Shown one piece after another: positions 5,193-24,058 of a DNA stretch of 64,000 nucleotides; positions within the stretch are counted from its first letter, which is position 1, and each line of letters begins with the position of its first letter. A model generated the notes under the pieces. The model saw only the letters and a list, made by a program, of their open reading frames with translations, did no database searches and was not told where the DNA came from. The position numbers were made by a program, and so were the translations under genes. This stretch comes from Archangium sp. (GTDB lineage: Bacteria; Myxococcota; Myxococcia; Myxococcales; Myxococcaceae): assembly GCA_030695565.1 (NCBI GenBank), contig JAUYRZ010000110.1, positions 1 through 64,000 of the forward strand. Reading direction: 5' to 3'.

Positions 5193-6280
5193 CCCCTCAC
5201 CCTGACCCTCTCCCGAAGGGAGAGGGGAACATGAAATTGCACGATGTTGATGACCCATGGGCCGTCCGTGAGTTCGGGCTCCCAGGACAGGTCTTCGTTT
5301 GCGGCTGTGTGGCCGAGCAGTGACTTGGCGGCCTCGTGCAGCGTCTCGACTCGCAGTTGTTCGGCTCTCAGCTCGCGGACTGCCCGGCGCCGGCGGATGA
5401 AGGCCAACACCACCAGCCCTGACGTTCCGATCCACACCAGCGTGCCGCCCGAGAGAAGCAGCGGCCACCACGGGTAGCGCTTCGGCAGCTCACGGCGGAA
5501 GGCGTCTTCTTCCATCGAGAGCGGCAGGTAGAACGCCACGCCGAACGCCTTCTCGAAGCTGTCTCCTTGCGAGACGCGCTCGATCAACCGCTGAAACGCG
5601 AACGAGCCGTGCCGATCTCGGAGGAACTCCACGAAGGCCACGCTCTGCGCGTAGGCGATCTCCACATCATCGGGAAATCGGGGGAAGTGTTCCGTGAGAT
5701 CCTCGAAGAAGAAGACACGATCCTGCGTGACCGCGCGGGTCAGCGTGGCCACCTGCTGCACGTGCCACTTCCGCTCGCCGGTCAGCTCTTGCGCGAGGCC
5801 TTCTTGAAACCAGTGCGGCCACACGCTCCCGAACTGTCCCAGCGCGGCGTGCACCAGCTCATGTCGCAGCGTGAGCGGGCCTTCGCCATTCACCAGCGAG
5901 TGCGCCTCGACCAACACGATGTTCTTCCCCGGGTAGGCCAGCGCGATCGCCCAGCTCGGCGGCCTTCCACCCGGGAGCGCGAGCGCTTCGTACTCCTCGC
6001 GCCCGAAGCCCACGCGGATCTCCGTGACGCCGGGCCAGTCGCGGCCGAGCAACTTCGCGATGTCATCGCGCACCGACTCGATGTCGCGCTTCAGGTACTC
6101 CGCGGCGCCCTTCGCGCGAGGCGTGTGCACGATGCGGAAACGCGGGGTGAGGATCTCCGAGGTCTCCATCGAGCCGGCCGTGACCGGGCCCGAGGAAGGA
6201 ATCTCGAAAGGAGCTGCATCCGAAGGGGGAGGGGGCGCGACCATCAATGCCAACGCCAACAGGGGGGCCAGGGCCGTCAC
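5189..6280 (-). CDS. Exported MA-clan metallopeptidase-like protein with C-terminal TM anchor
   Basis: The GTG start at 6280 overlaps the stop of the DUF167 gene (GTGA), giving 363 residues. Residues 1-20 ([18 protein letters not shown]) form a signal peptide or anchor. The gluzincin motif is HELVH at 140-144 with the third ligand Glu160 in WFQEGLAQ, as in the peptidase MA-like domain. A TM helix ([24 protein letters not shown]) lies near 270-298, followed by an arginine-rich cytoplasmic tail. The last residues ([12 protein letters not shown]) are translated from a dispersed repeat copy. The likely role is as a membrane-tethered envelope peptidase of unknown substrate. Confidence 0.75.
5193..5227. 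repeat. Dispersed palindromic repeat, copy 3
   Basis: A CCCCTCACCCTGACCCTCTCCC lead is followed by GAA and GGGAGAGGGG. It lies between two convergent genes whose stop codons overlap, and encodes the final residues of the minus-strand peptidase. Confidence 0.85.
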
Positions 6281-6567
6281 TTCGGCAAGATGGCCATGAC
6301 TTGCGCAGGCGCCACCCCCCGAACGGCCAGTCGCTTGCGCCGGGACGTCTGGCCCTCGATCAGGCTGACGTCTGATTTCCGCACGTTGAGCGCGTCGCTC
6401 AAGAACTCGATCAGCGCGGCGTTCGCCTCCCCGTCGACCGGTGGAGCGGCCAGCGCGATCTTCAACCGCCCCGCGTGTTCGCCGACCACCCTGGTTCGGG
6501 AGGCGCGGGGTTGAACGAGCACGACCAGCTCGCAACCGCCGGGCACCTCCTTCAGCCAGACGGTCAC
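6277..6567 (-). CDS. DUF167/YggU family protein
   Basis: This 96-residue protein shows the hallmarks of the small DUF167 family: [14 protein letters not shown] near the start, then [22 protein letters not shown] and a basic C-terminal third ([20 protein letters not shown]). Family length is about 70-110 residues and the function is unknown. The GTG start (6565-6567) overlaps the divIVA stop, and its own stop overlaps the next start, placing it within a coupled operon. In other bacteria DUF167 genes often lie near proC and divIVA-like genes, as here. Confidence 0.88.
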
Positions 6568-7046
6568 TTCTTGACCAGGTACGCCACCTCGCCGCCCGGC
6601 TGCGTCTTCCAGCTGTCGAGCAGCTTCTTGTGCGAGTCGACCAGCGCCTCGAGGTGCGACTCGAACTGCACCTTCTGCCGCTTGAGCTCGTTGAGCTCCC
6701 TGACCAACTCCACCAGGCGGTTGTTCGCAGACGCGACGATCTTGTCGGCCTGAAGCTCGGCCTCGGCGACGATCACCTCGGCCTCCTTCTTGGCCTGCGC
6801 CTTCACGTCTTCGCTGATGCGCTGGGCAGTGACCATCGTCTCCTGCAGCGCCTTCTCACGATCGAGGTGCTGCTCGAGGCGGGCCTGCACGCGCTTGAGC
6901 TCTTCCTTGAGCGAGATGTTCTCGCGCACCACTTCTTCGAACTCACCGGCGGTCAGCTCGAGAAAGGCCTCAGCCTCTTTCTTCGAGTAGCCCCGGAAGT
7001 TCACCTCGAAGCGCTTCTGGCGGATGTCGAGCGGCGTCATCTTCAT
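6564..7046 (-). CDS. divIVA: DivIVA-domain coiled-coil protein
   Basis: The 160-residue protein opens with [20 protein letters not shown], the DivIVA N-terminal lipid-binding signature (TPLDI...F...FRGY). A long heptad-rich coiled coil follows from about residue 30 to 140 ([21 protein letters not shown]). DivIVA proteins recognise negatively curved membrane at poles and septa and recruit division or growth factors. It sits between proC and the DUF167 gene, an arrangement seen in many bacteria. The ATG start lies 15 bases after the proC stop. Confidence 0.88.
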
Positions 7047-7061
7047 CGGTAGGTCCTCAGG

Positions 7062-7886
7062 TCACTTCTTGAGCAGGAAAGCTTCGCCGAGCTCGCGGGC
7101 CCGGTTGGTGGCGGCTTCGACGGCGTCGATCAACGTGGTGCGCAGGCCACCTGCCTCGAGCGTGTGGAGGCCGGCAATGGCCGTTCCACCGGGGCTGGTC
7201 ACCTGGTCCTTCAGCTGGCCGGGGTGTTGGTTGGTCTCCATCAACAGCTTCGCGCTGCCGAGCACCGTCTGCGCCGCGAGCTTGAGCGACTGGTGCCGCG
7301 AGAGGCCGACCTTCACGCCTGCGTCGCTGAGCGCCTCGATGATGAGGAAGATGTACGCGGGCCCGCTGCCCGACAGGCCCGTCACCGCGTCGAGCTGGTA
7401 CTCGTCGACGACCGTGGTGAGGCCCACCGAGTCGAACATCGCGGTGGCCAGCGTCAGATCTTCCGGCGTGGCGTGTTCTCCCGCGGACAAGGCGGTCGCG
7501 CCGAGGCCCACCAGGCAGGGCGTGTTGGGCATGGTGCGCACGATGCGCGCGCCTGCACCGAGCCTTCGTTCGATGGCCGCGATGGGCACACCCGCCGCCA
7601 CGGAGACGATCAACTTCGATCGATCGATGGCCGGCGCGATCTGCACCAGCACCTTGTCGAGCGCCTGTGGTTTGACGGCGAGCACGATGACCTCGGAGTC
7701 TTTCGCCGCGGCGAGGTTGTCGAAGCCCACCACGATGCCGTGCGCGGTCTCGAGCTCGACCTTCTTCTCTTCACGGCGAACCGTCGCAGTGATCTTTTCT
7801 TTGGGCAGCCCGGCGCGGAGCAGCCCGCGAATGATCGCGTTGGCCATGTTGCCGGCCCCGAGAAAGGCGATGCGCCGGTCGATCAC
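7062..7886 (-). CDS. proC: Pyrroline-5-carboxylate reductase
   Basis: The 274-residue product (typical length) begins IAFLGAGNMANAIIRGLL, the NAD(P)H-binding GxGxM motif. It then has VIVLAVKPQALD, and the family signature is SPGGTAIAGLHTLEAGGLR near the C-terminus, after GLSGSGPAYIFLIIEAL. It catalyses the last step of proline synthesis, reduction of 1-pyrroline-5-carboxylate. The GTG start (7884-7886) overlaps the stop of the upstream HEAT-like gene by four bases. Confidence 0.95.
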   Translation of the reverse strand: MIDRRIAFLGAGNMANAIIRGLLRAGLPKEKITATVRREEKKVELETAHGIVVGFDNLAAAKDSEVIVLAVKPQALDKVLVQIAPAIDRSKLIVSVAAGVPIAAIERRLGAGARIVRTMPNTPCLVGLGATALSAGEHATPEDLTLATAMFDSVGLTTVVDEYQLDAVTGLSGSGPAYIFLIIEALSDAGVKVGLSRHQSLKLAAQTVLGSAKLLMETNQHPGQLKDQVTSPGGTAIAGLHTLEAGGLRTTLIDAVEAATNRARELGEAFLLKK

Positions 7887-13241: not shown

Positions 13242-13269
13242 TGTGGTTTCGACCAGCCTTTCTTACGAT
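13241..13269 (+). promoter_or_regulatory. Candidate sigma-70-type promoter for the Ser/Thr kinase gene
   Basis: TTGTGG at 13241-13246 and TACGAT at 13264-13269 are separated by 17 bases. The position, 25 bases before ATG 13294, would exclude the upstream ATG at 13243 as start. It is a partial consensus match only. Confidence 0.35.
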
Positions 13270-13293
13270 ACGCGGCCCCGTTCGGGTACTGCG

Positions 13294-15435
13294 ATGTCCG
13301 TCAACCAGTCATTCGGCAACTACACGCTCATCAAGAAGCTCGCGACCGGCGGCATGGCCGAGGTGTGGCTTGCGAAGCAGAGCGGCATCGAAGGGTTCAA
13401 TCGACACGTCGTCGTGAAGCGCATTCTGCCTCACCTCGCTGAGGATCCCGAATTCGTTCAGATGTTCTTGAACGAAGCGAAGATCGCCGCGCGCTTCAAT
13501 CACCCGAACATCGGGCAGATCTTCGATCTGGGTGAGACCGGCGGCCAGTACTTCATCGCCATGGAGTTCATTCATGGCGAGGACCTCGGGCGGGTGATGC
13601 GGCGCGCCTGGAGCACCGGCCAGTGGATCGCCCGGCACATCGCGCTGCGCGTGATGGCCGATACCTGCCAGGGCCTCTATTACGCGCACACCCGCAACGA
13701 CGAGCAGGGCCGCCCGCTGCGCGTGGTGCATCGCGACATCTCGCCGCAGAACATTTTGATCAGCTTCGACGGCGCTGTGAAGGTGGTCGACTTCGGCATC
13801 GCCAAGGCGAGCGACCAGGTCTCGAACACCAAGTCGGGCGCCATCAAGGGCAAGTTCGCGTACATGGCCCCCGAGCAGGCGGCCGGAAAACCGCTCGACG
13901 CGCGCAGCGATCTCTTCGCGCTGGGCCTGGTGCTCTACGAGCTGGTCACCGGCGTTCGCCCGCTCAAACGCGACAGTGAGCTGGCCACCTTGCAGGCGGC
14001 GTTGGAGTGCAAGATCGACCCGCCCTCCGCGGTGGCCGAGGTGCCCGCCGAGCTCGACGGCATCGTGATGCGCGCGCTCGCCAAGGCGCCCGACGATCGC
14101 TACGTCGACGCGCGCGAGTTCCAACGTTCGCTCGAGCAGTACCTCCTCAACTCGAAGGAGATGGCCACCAGCGCCGAGGTCTCCGAGCTGATGGCGGCGC
14201 TCTTTGCCGATCGCCTCGGAGAAGAAGCGCGCCTGGGCGCTCCCAATCCGTCCACCGAGTCGAGCACCAGCAACCCGGTGCCGCCTTCGTACAGCAGCGC
14301 GCCGCAGTCGGTCACCGTGCCGCCGCCGCGTTCGCAGCCTCCGCCACGCCCTGCTGATTCGGGTGGCCCGGTGCGCGCTTCGCCGAACATGACGCTCGAC
14401 GAAGACAGCATGGACTCCGACGTGGAGGCCGAAGAGGAGGACCCGGAAGTGTCGGGCCCGAGTCTGCGCGGCGGCTACGAACTTCCCGCAGGCACCGTGG
14501 TGCCCAGCCGGGGGTACTTGAAGAAGTCCGACTCCACCGTGGCAGCGCGTTCATCGCGGCCCGAGATGACCCGCATGTCTCCTGAAGACGAGGAGGCCAT
14601 GGCGCCCCGGCCGGTCAAGCGCAAGACCGCCACCCGGCAGAGCTCGGCCTACACGCCCGCTCAGACGAAGGATGACGACGAGCCGCGGGGGCGCAGGCCT
14701 TCAGGTCAGATGAAGCGGCGCACCAGCTCGGGCGTGATGCCCGAGGCGCCGGCACGCAGCAAGTCGCGGGCGAACATGGAAGCGCGGCCCAGCGCCGATG
14801 GCATCTCCAAGATCGTCGACGTGCAGGGGATGAAGGATCGGCAGAGCTCGCGGCTCAAGGCCCTCATCTCGGTGCTGGTGCTGATCGGCGCGTTGGTGCT
14901 GCTGTTCGTCTTCAAGGACAGCCTGATGAGCTTGCTCAAGCGCGACTCGTTGTCGGAGACCGGCGTGCCGGTTCGCCTGTCGGTGAGCAGCAATCCTCCC
15001 GTTCAGGTCACGGTGATCCCAGGCGACAAGGCGAAGGGCCGCTCCCCCATGGATCTGGGCCGCACGCCCATCGATGCCCAGTCGGGCGCGTTCGTGGGCG
15101 ACACCGTGCGCCTGGTGAACGAAGACCAACACATCAGCTACGAAGAGGTGATCGAGTACGGCCAGCCCAACGATCTGCGCCTCATCAGCAAGACGTTCAA
15201 ACCGAGCTCGGTGCGCATCAAGATCGTCCCTGCCTTGAAGAACTGCACGGTCTGGCGCGGGAACTACAAGTTGGGGCAGGTCGGCGTGAACTTGAGCCTC
15301 TTCCCGGGCCGACACGAGCTGGAGATTCGCTGTGATGCCCTCGTGCGATCCCACCCGTTCGAAGTGAACTTCAGCGACAACTCCAAGAACCTCGAGATCA
15401 ACGAAGACGTCTCGGCGGACGTGGAGAGAAAGTGA
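13294..15435 (+). CDS. Ser/Thr protein kinase with TM and extracytoplasmic PEGA-like domain
   Basis: The start is placed at ATG 13294 (713 residues) rather than 13243 because the kinase domain begins at once (FGNYTLIKKLATGGMAEVWLA). Visible motifs are the catalytic Lys in VVVKRI, HRDISPQN (the form common in myxobacterial kinases), DFGIAKA and KFAYMAPEQ, so it should be active. A Pro/Ser/acidic linker of about 250 residues follows, then a TM helix (ALISVLVLIGALVLLFVF, about 524-546). The C-terminal extracytoplasmic beta domain (RLSVSSNPPVQVTVIPG...LFPGRHELEIRC) is PEGA-like. It probably senses an envelope signal; substrates are unknown. Confidence 0.88.
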   Translation: MSVNQSFGNYTLIKKLATGGMAEVWLAKQSGIEGFNRHVVVKRILPHLAEDPEFVQMFLNEAKIAARFNHPNIGQIFDLGETGGQYFIAMEFIHGEDLGRVMRRAWSTGQWIARHIALRVMADTCQGLYYAHTRNDEQGRPLRVVHRDISPQNILISFDGAVKVVDFGIAKASDQVSNTKSGAIKGKFAYMAPEQAAGKPLDARSDLFALGLVLYELVTGVRPLKRDSELATLQAALECKIDPPSAVAEVPAELDGIVMRALAKAPDDRYVDAREFQRSLEQYLLNSKEMATSAEVSELMAALFADRLGEEARLGAPNPSTESSTSNPVPPSYSSAPQSVTVPPPRSQPPPRPADSGGPVRASPNMTLDEDSMDSDVEAEEEDPEVSGPSLRGGYELPAGTVVPSRGYLKKSDSTVAARSSRPEMTRMSPEDEEAMAPRPVKRKTATRQSSAYTPAQTKDDDEPRGRRPSGQMKRRTSSGVMPEAPARSKSRANMEARPSADGISKIVDVQGMKDRQSSRLKALISVLVLIGALVLLFVFKDSLMSLLKRDSLSETGVPVRLSVSSNPPVQVTVIPGDKAKGRSPMDLGRTPIDAQSGAFVGDTVRLVNEDQHISYEEVIEYGQPNDLRLISKTFKPSSVRIKIVPALKNCTVWRGNYKLGQVGVNLSLFPGRHELEIRCDALVRSHPFEVNFSDNSKNLEINEDVSADVERK

Positions 15436-16635: not shown

Positions 16636-17382
16636 ATGTCGCTCCCGACCGAATGGATCGCCGCTCTGGAAGCACGCTGGCCAGGAGTGCGGGCCGTCGA
16701 CTCGGTGTCTCATCAAGGAGAAGACGGCGCGGATCTCCTCCTCGCAGCGGCCTGCCTCGCAAAAGATCCCCGCGCCCTCGCGTACCTCGACGCGTTGATC
16801 GTCAACGAAGTCCGCCGCGCCGTCTCGCCGCTCGACACCACCAACGCCCTGGTCGACGAGGTGACTCAGCTCGTCCGTGAACGCCTCCTGATGCCGCCGC
16901 CGAGACTTGCCGAATACTCAGGCCAGGGCTCGCTCGCTTCCTGGATCCGCGCCGTCGCCGTGCGCCTCGCCCTGAACGCCAAGCGCCCCGGTGCACGCGA
17001 AGACGCCGTCGAAGAGCTTCCGGAAACGCCCCTCGCCGACGCCGACCCCGAGCTCGCGTTGCTGCGATCCCGCTACCGCGAGTCCTTCCGCACCGCCTTC
17101 GCCGAAGCCGTCGGCACGCTCACCCCGCGCGAGCGCACGATGATGAGGCTGACCGCCCTCGACGGCCTGACCTGCGCCCAGGTGGGCCAGATGTACGGGA
17201 AAGACGCCTCGACGGTCTCGCGCTGGTTGTCGTCGAGCCGCGCGGTGCTGCTGGAGAAGACCCGGCAGATCCTCTCCCACTCCCTCGCACTCTCACCCTC
17301 GGCCCTCGACAGCCTGATGCGCGTGGCCGACAGTGAGCTCGACCTGAGTATTTCCAGGCTCCTCGAGAGCACCATCGACTGA
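16636..17382 (+). CDS. Sigma-70-family (ECF-like) RNA polymerase sigma factor
   Basis: The 248-residue protein has a degenerate region 2 (LLAAACLAKDPRALAYLDALIV...LLMPPPRLAEYSGQGSLASWIRAVAVRLALN) and a clear region 4. Region 4 comprises GTLTPRERTMMRLTALDGLTCAQVGQMYGKDASTVSRWLSSSR; the helix-turn-helix runs from CAQVG to VSRWL. It belongs with the kinase-associated ECF-like sigma factors of myxobacteria and planctomycetes. The next gene, 54 bases on, encodes a kinase with an anti-sigma-type zinc finger, so the two probably form a regulatory pair. A C-terminal extension of about 35 residues follows region 4. Confidence 0.83.
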   Translation: MSLPTEWIAALEARWPGVRAVDSVSHQGEDGADLLLAAACLAKDPRALAYLDALIVNEVRRAVSPLDTTNALVDEVTQLVRERLLMPPPRLAEYSGQGSLASWIRAVAVRLALNAKRPGAREDAVEELPETPLADADPELALLRSRYRESFRTAFAEAVGTLTPRERTMMRLTALDGLTCAQVGQMYGKDASTVSRWLSSSRAVLLEKTRQILSHSLALSPSALDSLMRVADSELDLSISRLLESTID

Positions 17383-17436: not shown

Positions 17437-19263
17437 ATGTGCCCAGACGAAAACGAGCTGACCCAGTTTGCCCGCGGTGGAGCCCGAGAGCTGCCCGCAC
17501 TCGAAGCTCATCTCGATGGTTGCGAACGCTGCCGCCGCGCCGTGGCCGCCGCCGCTTCTGAACAGACCTTGCCGGGCCAGGTGCCGAGCCACGAGCTGAC
17601 CCCGGGCCTTCGCGTCGGCCGCTATGAAATCGAACGTGAGCTGGGTCGGGGGGGCATGGGCGTGGTGTACCAGGCGCGCGACGTGACGCTCGATCGCCGG
17701 GTGGCCCTCAAGCTGCTGCATGCCCGGCGTGATGAAGCGGCGCAGGCGCGGCTGCTCCGTGAAGCGCAGGTGATGGCGAAGCTGGCGCACCCCAACGTGG
17801 TGCCGGTCTTCGAGCTCGGCGAGTGGCGCAACGATCTCTACCTGGTGATGGAGCTTGTCACCGGCGTCACCCTCGAGGCCTGGCTCAAACGCGCGAAGCA
17901 CCGGCGCAGCGACATCCTCGAGCACTTCATGCAGGCCGGCCGCGGGCTCGCCGCCGCCCACGCCGCGGGTGTGGTGCACCGCGACTTCAAGCCCGCCAAC
18001 GTGCTGGTCGGTCTCGATGACCGCGTGCGCGTGACCGACTTCGGGCTCTCTCGCCCCGGCCCTGCGTTGGAGCTCCCCGCCACCAACTCAGCCGTGGTCA
18101 CCCGCGATGGCGCGATCGTCGGCACGCTCGCGTACATGGCGCCTGAGCAGCTCGACGGGAAGACCGCCGACGAGCGAAGTGATCAGTTCTCGTTCTGCGT
18201 GGCGCTCATCGAGGCGCTGGCGGGTCAGCGGCCGTTCAAGGGCGAGACCTGGTCGGAGCTCGCGGTGAGCCTCGGCGAGAAGCCGCGGTTCGGCACGGGC
18301 ATTCCGGCGCAGCTGCGCGGGGTGCTTCGCAAAGGGCTCGAGCAGAATCCCGCCCATCGGTACGCCTCGATGACCGCGCTGCTCAACGCGATCGAGCGTG
18401 CGCAGAACGTGGGCTGGCGCACGGTCGCGATGACCGGCGGCGTGGCGCTCCTGGTCACCGGGCTCATCTCTGCGCAGCGCATGCAGCCGGCTCCGCTGGT
18501 GGTCGCGAACAACGCTGCGGCCGCCCCCCAGGATGCAGAGGCAGCAGCAGAGGATTTCGTGCCCGTCGTGATGGCGGGTGTCGACATGCCCGCAGGCACC
18601 ATCGTGACCTTCGACATGTTGGTGCAGCGCTCGATGCCGGCCCGGTACATCACCAGCTCGGTCATCAAGCCCGACGCGGCCTCGTACATCATCGGGCAGC
18701 CGCTCAATGTTCCGGTGCAGCGAGGCGACACGCTGTTGTGGAGCCAGTTCGAGCAGATGCCCGCGAAGGGCAAGACCGTGCTCAGCGTGAGGCAGGACGT
18801 GGCTGAAGGGTCCGTGCTGGTTCGCGAGCTGCTCGAAGAGCACCAGGTGCCCGAGGAGGTGGCGACCAACTCGGTCGTGAAGCCGCACGCGATCGCGCAT
18901 GTGCTGGGGCACCGGGTGAAGGCGCCCATGAGGAAGGGCGATCTACTGCTGTGGAGTCAGGTTGCGACACAGCTCGAAGACGAGCCGGGCTCACTGACCT
19001 TCGAGGAGATCACCAGGGTCGCCGTCGAGCATCATGAGCAGCTCGCGAGGTGCGAGAAGCTCAGCGACCGGGAGCTCGAGCTTCACTTGAGCTGGAAGGT
19101 GACCGCGGGAGGGACTCCTTACAATGTTGAGGCTGCTCAGGAGAAAGACCACCCCGCGACCCTCTGCCTCGTGAAGGCGATCTCGGGTTGGAAGTTTCCG
19201 GAGAGGTCGGTGCCGACTCTCAATATTGATTTTCCGGTGAGGCTCGTGAGGCCCTCACCCTGA
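17437..19263 (+). CDS. Ser/Thr kinase: zf-HC2 - kinase - TM - two SAF domains - TonB-C/AgmX-like domain
   Basis: The 608-residue protein starts MCPDENELTQFA. The ZAS/zf-HC2 finger has Cys2, His25, Cys29 and Cys32 (HLDGCERC). The kinase domain spans about 62-325: GRGGMGVVY, ALKLL, HRDFKPAN, DFGLS and LAYMAPEQ are all intact. A TM helix lies at about 329-348. Outside the membrane are two similar SAF-like modules (AGVDMPAGTIVTFDML, about 369-440; RQDVAEGSVLVRELL, about 445-510), each ending in RGDTLLWSQ or KGDLLLWSQ. The last 60 residues (LHLSWKVTAGG...CLVKAISGWKFP) resemble the AgmX/PglI TonB-like C-terminal domain. It probably controls the adjacent sigma factor. I do not know this architecture from elsewhere. 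Confidence 0.85.
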   Translation: MCPDENELTQFARGGARELPALEAHLDGCERCRRAVAAAASEQTLPGQVPSHELTPGLRVGRYEIERELGRGGMGVVYQARDVTLDRRVALKLLHARRDEAAQARLLREAQVMAKLAHPNVVPVFELGEWRNDLYLVMELVTGVTLEAWLKRAKHRRSDILEHFMQAGRGLAAAHAAGVVHRDFKPANVLVGLDDRVRVTDFGLSRPGPALELPATNSAVVTRDGAIVGTLAYMAPEQLDGKTADERSDQFSFCVALIEALAGQRPFKGETWSELAVSLGEKPRFGTGIPAQLRGVLRKGLEQNPAHRYASMTALLNAIERAQNVGWRTVAMTGGVALLVTGLISAQRMQPAPLVVANNAAAAPQDAEAAAEDFVPVVMAGVDMPAGTIVTFDMLVQRSMPARYITSSVIKPDAASYIIGQPLNVPVQRGDTLLWSQFEQMPAKGKTVLSVRQDVAEGSVLVRELLEEHQVPEEVATNSVVKPHAIAHVLGHRVKAPMRKGDLLLWSQVATQLEDEPGSLTFEEITRVAVEHHEQLARCEKLSDRELELHLSWKVTAGGTPYNVEAAQEKDHPATLCLVKAISGWKFPERSVPTLNIDFPVRLVRPSP

Positions 19264-20964: not shown

Positions 20965-23853
20965 CTACGGCCGGGCCAGGGCGGCCGCCGCGTCGTGGGT
21001 CAGGGCGCTCGACGGGGGCAGGTCGGCCACGGCCTCCTCGAGCAGGGAGCGCTGGCGGGTGTCCTTGCTGCCCCGGAGGGCGGTGGCGAGCCAGTACGCG
21101 GTGACTGCGCGCTCGGGGCTCCGCTCTCGCCGGAGGGCCAGCGCCTGCTCCAGCACCACCTTCGCGCCCGTCACGTCGCCCGAGAGCAGCTTCGCTTCAC
21201 CCAGGCCCGTGAGGTTGTAGGCGAGGTCCAGGTGCTGTTCGCCTTGCCGGGCTCTCCGAATGCCCAGGGCGCGTTCGTCGAGGGTGACCGACTCGGCCCA
21301 CCGTTTGGTGCCGCGGCGGGCGATGGCGAGGTTGGTCAGGGTGATCGCCACGGTGAGCGAATCGGCGCTGGTGCGTTGCTCCTTCACATCGAGGGCCCGT
21401 TGCAGGGCCTCTTCGGCGGCGGGCAGATCTTCGAGATCGAGCAACAGGGCGCCGAGGTTGGTCAGCGTCACGGCGACCGGCAGGCTGTCCTTTCCGAACG
21501 CGGCTTCTTTGATGCGCAACGAACGCTCCAACGCGCGGCGTGCACCGGTGGGCGAACCCTGCGCCTTGAGCACGTTGCCCAGGTTGTTGAGCGTGTCGGC
21601 GACCTGCGGGTGTGAAGCATCGAGCGCGAGCTCTTCGATGGAGAGCGCCTGCTCGTACTGCGCCCGCGCATCGTCGAGTCTGCCGAGCATCTTGAAAGCC
21701 GTGCCCAGGTTCGAGTGCGATCGCGCGACGAGCGGGTGCCGGTCGCCCAGCTGCTCACGGCGCAAGGTGAGCGCGCGTTGATGGGCCTCGACCGCCACCT
21801 CGTAGTGGCCGCGGTAGTAGGCGAGCACGCCCTGGTTGTTCGCGAACGAAGCCTCGAGCTCGGGTGGTTTGCCGACCCGATCGACCGCCGCGCGCGCGAA
21901 ACGCACCCATCGATCGGCGTCTTGAGCCGACGCACCCATCGCTGCGAAACCAATGCGCTCCACCCAGCCACGCGCCTGCAGCTCGTCGTCTTGCGCGGTC
22001 TCCGCCGCGAGAATCGACTCTTCCACCAGCGTGTCCGCCGCCTTCGCGTCACCGCTGCGCATCTTGCCGATGGCCATCCACAGCCGGGCTTCGGCATAGG
22101 TCGAGGTGTCGCCCGAAGCGCTTGCTTTGGTGGCCAGCTCGGAGGCGAGCGCGAGCGCGTCGGCGTACTTGCCCGCATCGATGCGCGCCTTCACCGCGGA
22201 GAGCTGCGCGCGGTTGGTCTCTCCCTCCGGCGTACGTCGGGGCGCCACGTTGACCTGCCGGCAAGCGGCGAGGGGCGCGAGCGCACCTGCCGTCGTCACC
22301 GCGCGCTCCACCACGTCGGCGTCGGCGTGCGCGAAGAGCTGGGTGGTGGCTTCGAGATCCGAGAGCCGTCGGCTCAGACAGACGATCTCCTGGCCGAGTT
22401 GCTCGTCGTTACGCTCGAGGCTGCCTTCACACGCTGCGCGGCGCATGGTGAGCCACTGGGCGCTGTAGTCGTCGAGCCGCGTCTCCACGTCGCGCCAGGC
22501 GGCGGCGGCCCAGGGCTTCTGCGTGGCCTCGAAGGACTGACGGACCGCGCGTTTCACCGACGGATCCCAGACCGCATTGAGCCGGGTGTCGACGTCGGCG
22601 CAGCGGGTGCGGGCGCGATACGAAGCGAGACCCGTGAGCCCCGCAGCGAGCACGGCCAGCGTGGCGATGGAGCCGAGCGCGAGGCTCTGCTCACGGGTCG
22701 AACGGCGCCGGCCCAGCTGCACCAACAACGCGCGCATCGTCTGGAAACGCTCCAGCGGCTCGGCGCGCATGCCCTTGAGCAGCAGCTGGTGGATGCGCCG
22801 GGGCACCCTGGTGTCTTTGGGCGGTGGACGAACGCGGTTCTGTTCGATCTCCACCGCGAGCGCGCCGGGCGTGGCGCCTTCGAACGGCCTGAAGCCGTAG
22901 AACGCTTCGTACAGCGCGACGCAGAACCCGAACTCATCGGAGCGGAAATCGGTCGGCCGCCCATGCAGCGCCTCGAGCGACATGTACGCGGGCGTGCCCA
23001 GCATCGCGCCGGGGTTGGTGATCGATCGGCGCTTCGGTTCGCCGGGCTCCTTCTTCCGTGCCGCCTGGCCGTGGGCCAGCCCGAAGTCCATCACCCGCAC
23101 GCGGCCTTCCGAGCCCACCACCACGTTGTCGGGCTTGAAGTCGCGGTGCGTGATGCCCTGGGCGTGCGCGGCGGCGAGGCCTTCTCCGGCGGCGATGAAG
23201 GTCTCCAGGGTCAATTGCCAACTGGGGGGCGGCTTCTGCTCGAGCCACTGCTTGAGGGTGCGCCCTTCGGCGAACTCCATCGCGAGGAAGACGCGATCGC
23301 CCGCGAGCCCCACGTCGTGCACCGTCACCACGTTCGGGTGCGAGAGCTTGGCCAGTGACTGCGCTTCTTGAAGCAGGCGGTGCTTCAGCTCTTCGCCCAG
23401 CTCAGAGCCTTCGAAGTCGGGGCGCAGCACCTTCACCGCGACCTTGCGATCGAGCACCGGATCCCACGCGGAGAAGACCTCGCCCATGCCGCCCGAGCCG
23501 AGCCGATCGAGGATCACGTAGCGATCGAGCGCCTCACCGCGCTGGATGCTGCTGTTGGTCAAGCTGACGCGTTCCTGTTCACCCGAGACGTGCGTGTCTT
23601 CGAGGCCGGGAACTTCGGGCGCGTTGCGGAAGGCGGGCGTCACCGGGGTGTCGCGGGTGTGTTTGCGCTGGCGAGCGGCGGGCGAGTCGAAGTTGGTCTG
23701 GGTGAGCGCCGAGTTCTGCAGCGCCATCGGCAGGTAGCGGGCCTGACAGTTCGCGCAGCCGCGAATGTGAGCGGACAGCTCAGCGCGGGCCGACAGATCG
23801 CCAGTCCCCCGCGCAAACGCCTCGAGTGCGGCCTCGGATGGACAGGAACTCAC
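20965..23853 (-). CDS. zf-HC2 Ser/Thr kinase with C-terminal TPR repeats
   Basis: The open frame extends to 24021, but the GTG at 23853 is preferred because the zinc finger starts there (Cys4, His29, Cys33, Cys36 in HIRGCANC), giving 962 residues. The kinase spans about 111-375: GSGGMGEVFSA, VAVKVL, HRDFKPDN and DFGLA are present, but the APE motif reads SLEAL. A TM helix follows (LALGSIATLAVLAAGLTGLA). The outer half carries a helical region and about six TPRs of 42 residues. These belong to the Kinesin-light-chain/TPR_12 type (ALTLRREQLGDRHPLVARSHSNLGTAF). The layout parallels the kinase at 17437 but has no sigma factor beside it. It is likely a membrane sensor kinase of unknown input. Confidence 0.85.
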   Translation of the reverse strand: MSSCPSEAALEAFARGTGDLSARAELSAHIRGCANCQARYLPMALQNSALTQTNFDSPAARQRKHTRDTPVTPAFRNAPEVPGLEDTHVSGEQERVSLTNSSIQRGEALDRYVILDRLGSGGMGEVFSAWDPVLDRKVAVKVLRPDFEGSELGEELKHRLLQEAQSLAKLSHPNVVTVHDVGLAGDRVFLAMEFAEGRTLKQWLEQKPPPSWQLTLETFIAAGEGLAAAHAQGITHRDFKPDNVVVGSEGRVRVMDFGLAHGQAARKKEPGEPKRRSITNPGAMLGTPAYMSLEALHGRPTDFRSDEFGFCVALYEAFYGFRPFEGATPGALAVEIEQNRVRPPPKDTRVPRRIHQLLLKGMRAEPLERFQTMRALLVQLGRRRSTREQSLALGSIATLAVLAAGLTGLASYRARTRCADVDTRLNAVWDPSVKRAVRQSFEATQKPWAAAAWRDVETRLDDYSAQWLTMRRAACEGSLERNDEQLGQEIVCLSRRLSDLEATTQLFAHADADVVERAVTTAGALAPLAACRQVNVAPRRTPEGETNRAQLSAVKARIDAGKYADALALASELATKASASGDTSTYAEARLWMAIGKMRSGDAKAADTLVEESILAAETAQDDELQARGWVERIGFAAMGASAQDADRWVRFARAAVDRVGKPPELEASFANNQGVLAYYRGHYEVAVEAHQRALTLRREQLGDRHPLVARSHSNLGTAFKMLGRLDDARAQYEQALSIEELALDASHPQVADTLNNLGNVLKAQGSPTGARRALERSLRIKEAAFGKDSLPVAVTLTNLGALLLDLEDLPAAEEALQRALDVKEQRTSADSLTVAITLTNLAIARRGTKRWAESVTLDERALGIRRARQGEQHLDLAYNLTGLGEAKLLSGDVTGAKVVLEQALALRRERSPERAVTAYWLATALRGSKDTRQRSLLEEAVADLPPSSALTHDAAAALARP

Positions 23854-24058
23854 CACGCTTCGGCACTCTACCTGCGGGTGGGGTGCCGGCTCGTATTTTG
23901 GTCTCGAGTGACGAGGAAGTGACTGGAGCCTCCGTGCCCCGTCGCTCGAATGGGGCGCGGGGTCATTGGCCTCCACGGAATGCGGGGTGTTTCGCGCGGG
24001 CCTGGCTCCTGCTCTGGCCACGAGAAGCAGCTCTCAACTACAGTCAGGTGGTCTCAAC

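Follow-up and report, generated by a model that had tools for sequence, protein, structure and literature searches.

A single open reading frame at positions 17437–19263 (+ strand) of the window, the 64,000-nucleotide stretch of Archangium sp. DNA that was analyzed, encoded a receptor Ser/Thr kinase of 608 amino acids: an N-terminal finger, a kinase domain, a transmembrane (TM) helix, two SAF modules, and an AgmX-like tail. The original prediction had read this order in one frame, and Pfam and NCBIfam searches recovered the same series, with weak matches for the finger and tail. The zf-HC2/ZAS-like finger (residues 1–50; 17437–17586, +) contained HLDGCERC (Hx3Cx2C); its match with PF13490 was below the cut-off (E = 0.022; 15.3 bits against a gathering threshold of 22.2), and the same model passed in the relatives L082 and L116 (26.3 and 30.0 bits, respectively). 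Furthermore, Hx3Cx2C in front of the kinase domain was kept in 86 of 90 gmx1-adjacent kinases from other loci. The kinase domain (residues 63–310; 17623–18366, +; Pfam E = 3.9e-43) had an intact VALK lysine, HRDFKPAN, DFG, and APE in the translation, and ranked with the most strongly conserved regions of the protein (88–89% identity). The PASTA kinase model NF033483 aligned with this domain only, and scored 244 bits against the required 450. A hydrophobic stretch in the translation (approximately residues 333–350; 18433–18486, +) corresponded to the TM helix.

SAF modules 1 and 2 were located at approximately residues 370–441 (18544–18759, +) and 443–512 (18763–18972, +), respectively. The SAF assignment was borne out by two stretches matching PF08666, which for the whole protein gave E = 1e-11 and 45.7 bits (cut-off, 21); each copy passed this cut-off alone in the genome search, the second with 24.4 bits, and, as had been noticed, both ended in LLWSQ (LLWSQF and LLWSQV). 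The C-terminal domain (residues 520–608; 18994–19260, +), previously described as TonB-C-like, resembled the tail of AgmX/GltJ: E values were 0.006 for myxo_SS_tail and 9.7e-4 for the GltJ C-terminus, and reached 1.7e-6 and 1.8e-11, respectively, in orthologs, still under the curated cut-offs. For the AgmX/PglI/GltJ C-terminal domain (NF033768), the window kinase scored 16.7 and the best ortholog 28.0 against a curated 40. The resemblance thus held and became stronger in orthologs, while formal membership did not, and the domain may be called AgmX/GltJ-like in the sense of sequence resemblance only. A low-confidence model of this part (pLDDT 50–66) had a helix-strand-helix-strand order. The probable finger and tail, weak in the window protein by itself, were therefore supported by their relatives. 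Identities at codon positions 1/2/3 against L028 were 85/93/72% for SAF1, 79/79/54% for SAF2, and 65/77/45% for the tail, indicating protein-level selection on the frame, including both SAF modules and the tail. Two further Ser/Thr kinases were found in the window: a TPR-bearing one at 20965–24021 (-), 1.7 kb from the SAF kinase on the opposite strand, which had the same type of N-terminal finger and did not adjoin any sigma gene, and one upstream at 13243–15435 (+), which had no finger and was conserved together with the sigma-kinase pair in the genome G051.

The proposed location of the kinase beside a sigma factor was confirmed: its gene started 54 bp downstream of an ECF-type sigma factor gene (16636–17382, +; 248 amino acids) belonging to TIGR03001, Sig-70_gmx1 (213.8 bits against a cut-off of 154.6). 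Orthologous pairs were found in three genomes of the same genus (G050, G051, and G052) and in G129 from another genus of the family; the sigma factors were 84, 82, 65, and 63% identical, each adjoining the orthologous kinase, and the kinase of G129 was 54% identical to that of the window. Since the pair was kept while the flanking genes differed in G129 and G052, the sigma factor and kinase form a conserved unit. The only relative from the contig scan, an Archangium sp. MAG, was seemingly the same contig as G051:C62, judging from its length and matching range, and is not independent evidence. More generally, gmx1 genes were present in 108 of 195 genomes of the phylum and in none of 14 control genomes, and a Ser/Thr kinase was located within 1.5 kb of 91 of the 102 gmx1 genes sampled. 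At the site aligned with DAED, the window sigma factor had LVDE, and the two acidic residues (D-E) at the last two positions were kept. A by-eye reading of TTNA for DAED, which would have meant acidic-motif loss of the ECF43 type, was dropped because alignment with canonical sigma factors placed D-E at the last two positions. Outside the coding sequence, the DNA upstream of the orthologous sigma genes had no conserved promoter-like block, and no link of the pair to a regulon or promoter was found; no Tad genes adjoining it were seen in the stretches examined.

SAF domains are known in FlgA, CpaB, antifreeze proteins, and sialic-acid synthases. Three CpaB proteins from the own genome had SAF domains with 63, 58, and 54% identity to SAF1, and SAF2 was 46% identical to CpaB from another genome. 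A CpaB protein of the own genome, in turn, aligned over most of its length with RcpC of Pseudomonas aeruginosa (9gzr; E = 1.2e-6). Among the predicted structures, SAF1 gave the sole usable model (AlphaFold2 with a four-row alignment; pLDDT 76), the model of the whole ectodomain from two sequences having a pLDDT of 34. Searched with this model, Foldseek placed RcpC (D1) first (E = 2.6e-3; TMq 0.75). In VIA-align, which also placed it first with Z 10.1, 65 residues superposed with an rmsd of 2.0, the matched part being chain residues 54–118. FlgA (Z 9.8) tied with it and type III antifreeze proteins were close. SAF structures in general gave Z values of 8–10, so that the model has a SAF fold as predicted, and a non-SAF fold was not borne out. 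The structural ranking by itself cannot separate CpaB from FlgA, but sequence identity does. RcpC was recovered by the fold search but missed when a profile of the SAF alignment was run against PDB sequences; the profile gave a weak partial match to the sialic-acid synthase 1wvo. The window kinase scored 43.4 bits against 71 for the full-length CpaB/RcpC family TIGR03177, and the RcpC domain PF16976 was not found in it by Pfam; only the SAF part was common with CpaB/RcpC. Because both sequence and fold were nearest to CpaB/RcpC, the SAF modules of the window kinase are of the CpaB type rather than the glycan type.

A local profile scan of about 110 loci for SAF and PF13629 (the N-terminal module of the pilus secretin) revealed 17 gmx1-linked kinases with one or both modules, the window kinase and 16 others, from 12 myxobacterial genomes, four of which (G100, G103, G104, and G118) were represented by a single contig. 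SAF was found on six of them: the window kinase, L031, L032, L033, L034, and L121. PF13629 was found on twelve, L031 carrying both. The number of modules varied: one, two, or three SAF (three in L033), and one to four or more PF13629 (the highest in L116). In the ortholog of G129, PF13629 (E = 1.7e-10) took the place of the second SAF beside one SAF. The PF13629 modules of sister kinases and companion proteins were up to 53–55% identical to that of a CpaC-type secretin of the own genome (those of the kinases, up to 53%), and at nine of the 17 loci a companion gene carried the same modules as the kinase. A paralogous locus in the own genome (contig C3, 2959–6475) comprised a gmx1 sigma factor, a small protein, and a kinase with a single PF13629 and no SAF; the small protein, encoded 5' of the kinase, began like a signal sequence and had two PF13629 modules. 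The survey drew its sample from gmx1 loci, and kinases with these modules elsewhere were listed for the own genome only, in which, among all SAF and PF13629 matches, the only kinases were those of the window and C3, both adjoining gmx1 sigma factors. Mapped onto a maximum-likelihood sigma-factor tree, the pilus-module label was strongly clustered, with 4 changes against a shuffled mean of 15.1, and none of 500 shuffles was as low; near-copies inflate this test, and the count of changes weighs more than the shuffles. Sensor type and sigma lineage have travelled together. The three-SAF kinase L033 (G050:C360, 4432–6501) scored 88.7 bits with TIGR03177, above the cut-off of 71, and automatic annotation may call it CpaB.

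Several other loci of the own genome brought the same modules close to sigma factors. At contig C78 (L039; 5412–7992), an ECF sigma gene was followed by a fusion gene (6010–7161) and a second cpaB; the fusion protein consisted of an N-terminal region with two YLWDKSG-type motifs, which we take to be those of myxobacterial anti-sigma factors, and a complete CpaB (TIGR03177, 158.5 bits), possibly a separate event in which an anti-sigma factor captured CpaB. Contig C131 (3333–10299) encoded an ECF sigma factor and a finger-bearing anti-sigma factor, followed by cpaB, two TadB/TadC-type genes, and a FHA-like gene, a content resembling that of the Kil cluster. At contig C73 (2132–3436), the gene after a sigma-factor match encoded TPRs and PF13629, a candidate sensor of the same theme. 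These three cases indicated that CpaB or CpaC modules recur beside sigma factors in other architectures. In addition, three consecutive SAF-bearing frames were found on contig C1 (4053–9825), one encoding a lipoprotein-like CpaB relative and another, of 1252 amino acids, seemingly a CpaB-like part joined to a longer protein.

The reading that we tentatively favor, at somewhat less than an even chance, is that the sigma factor and finger-kinase follow the state of an envelope machine of the Tad or Kil type by means of modules copied from its own components, candidates being the Tad pilus and the Tad-like Kil system. In the solved ring of RcpC, a dodecamer, the D1 domains form dimer pairs, and the secretin RcpA is bound by RcpC at its N-domain (PMC12307814). 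From its position and size, this N-domain probably corresponds to PF13629. The periplasmic SAF modules may likewise form pairs among themselves or with the SAF (D1) of CpaB, while the tail would reach toward the wall or outer membrane. A changed assembly of the machine would then alter the dimerization of the kinase and lead to trans-autophosphorylation, after which the kinase would activate the gmx1 sigma factor. The analogy with anti-sigma zinc domains suggests that the finger may be in direct contact with the sigma factor, holding or docking it, and phosphorylation of either the sigma factor or the finger may release or activate the former; the likely output would be pilus, predation, or envelope genes. 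A more specific and somewhat more doubtful version, still a possibility worth naming, is that the copies of CpaB SAF and of the CpaC N-domain on the kinases act as decoys, docking on the machine or competing for it, and that the kinases signal via the gmx1 sigma factors when it assembles, fires, or meets prey. Several points count against the favored reading: a SAF fold by itself fixes no ligand; the kinases are without D2 of RcpC, the ring-forming domain that contributes to secretin binding; the sigma factor is still acidic at the DAED site; the tail is under the curated cut-offs; and neither a Tad gene beside the pair, in the stretches examined, nor a tie to a regulon or promoter was found.

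That no Tad genes were seen beside the pair also speaks for a rather unlikely alternative, in which SAF and PF13629 are mere dimerization or oligomerization scaffolds taken over from pilus proteins, and the kinase senses another cue, such as wall strain, outer-membrane damage, or a partner of the tail, and is not functionally tied to Tad. The pairing of D1 in the RcpC ring makes a stand-alone role in dimerization plausible (PMC12307814), as does the free variation in module number (1–3 SAF and 1 to 4 or more PF13629). However, the two kinds of captured module are interacting parts of one machine, RcpC binding the N-domain of RcpA (PMC12307814), companion proteins bear the same modules as the kinases, and at L039, also in the own genome, a CpaB with an extra N-terminal region is encoded directly after an ECF sigma factor, all of which count against this alternative.

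The original prediction proposed envelope or glycan sensing. The former is retained as the sensible class of function, but it is very improbable that the kinase is a glycan sensor whose SAF modules would bind glycan or sugars in the manner of sialic-acid synthases: against the occurrence of SAF in these synthases and the weak partial profile match to 1wvo stand the closer similarity to CpaB/RcpC in both sequence and fold, and the sister kinases with a CpaC N-domain in place of SAF. In the synthases, moreover, SAF is part of an enzyme rather than a stand-alone glycan receptor. An improbable, though less remote, arrangement is that the protein acts mainly as a classical anti-sigma factor to which a kinase has been added, in which the finger sequesters the sigma factor, the ectodomain triggers its release, and the kinase serves other substrates. 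This would fit the Hx3Cx2C motif of 86 of the 90 kinases, weak matches of ChrR/RsrA anti-sigma models at the N-terminus of a sister kinase, and the acidic residues kept at the DAED site, but not readily the intact state and high conservation of the kinase domain.

If the machine-sensing reading is correct, transcription in myxobacteria is coupled directly to the state of a Tad or Kil-type machine. The sigma-paired kinases, with sensors copied from the machine's own parts, would be named and testable candidates for how Tad or Kil machines signal their assembly or contact with prey to gene expression, and taking over domains of a machine in order to monitor it would be an evolutionary route to sensors. 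The pilus-module kinases are also prone to misannotation, L033 exceeding the cut-off of the CpaB family.

Among known systems, the EcfP/PknT and EcfK/PknS (ECF43) pairs are alike in placing an ECF sigma factor beside a membrane Ser/Thr kinase that conveys an envelope signal to transcription, and direct phosphorylation of the sigma factor by the neighboring kinase is established for both (PMC13147305, PMC8999054). They differ in that the window sigma factor belongs to the gmx1 family and is acidic at positions 3–4 of DAED, with no loss of the STTA type, and in that the window kinase bears a finger at its N-terminus and an ectodomain of the CpaB type; since the acidic residues are kept, the charge-restoring step of EcfP/EcfK is not simply transferable, and the activation step may differ. 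CpaB/RcpC, the alignment protein of the Tad pilus (9gzr), also has SAF (D1) after a TM helix, facing the periplasm, whereas the window protein has two SAF modules, neither D2 (PF16976) nor the ring-forming C-terminus, and a cytoplasmic kinase. The N-terminal module of the CpaC/RcpA secretin (PF13629) is present in sister kinases and companion proteins, and absent from the window protein. The Tad-like Kil system of Myxococcus xanthus, which kills prey on contact, includes the CpaB homolog KilB and the secretin KilC, and it is modules of such parts that are reused in the kinases; an upstream signaling cascade has been proposed with its parts not named, and no kinase or sigma factor of the gmx1-pair kind is described in these reports (PMC8460266, PMC12075869). 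No other description of SAF/PF13629 sensor kinases was found in the open-access papers searched. A survey from 2010 notes that SAF domains occur on Ser/Thr kinases of proteobacteria (PMC2877116), so that prior annotation of the combination, which the original prediction had allowed for, applies loosely to the SAF-kinase linkage; the passage in that survey does not describe the sigma pairing, CpaB origin, PF13629 (CpaC) counterpart, or companion gene. Sigma-kinase pairs were already known and SAF-linked kinases had been mentioned, and the pilus-derived sensor family is a new variation on them.
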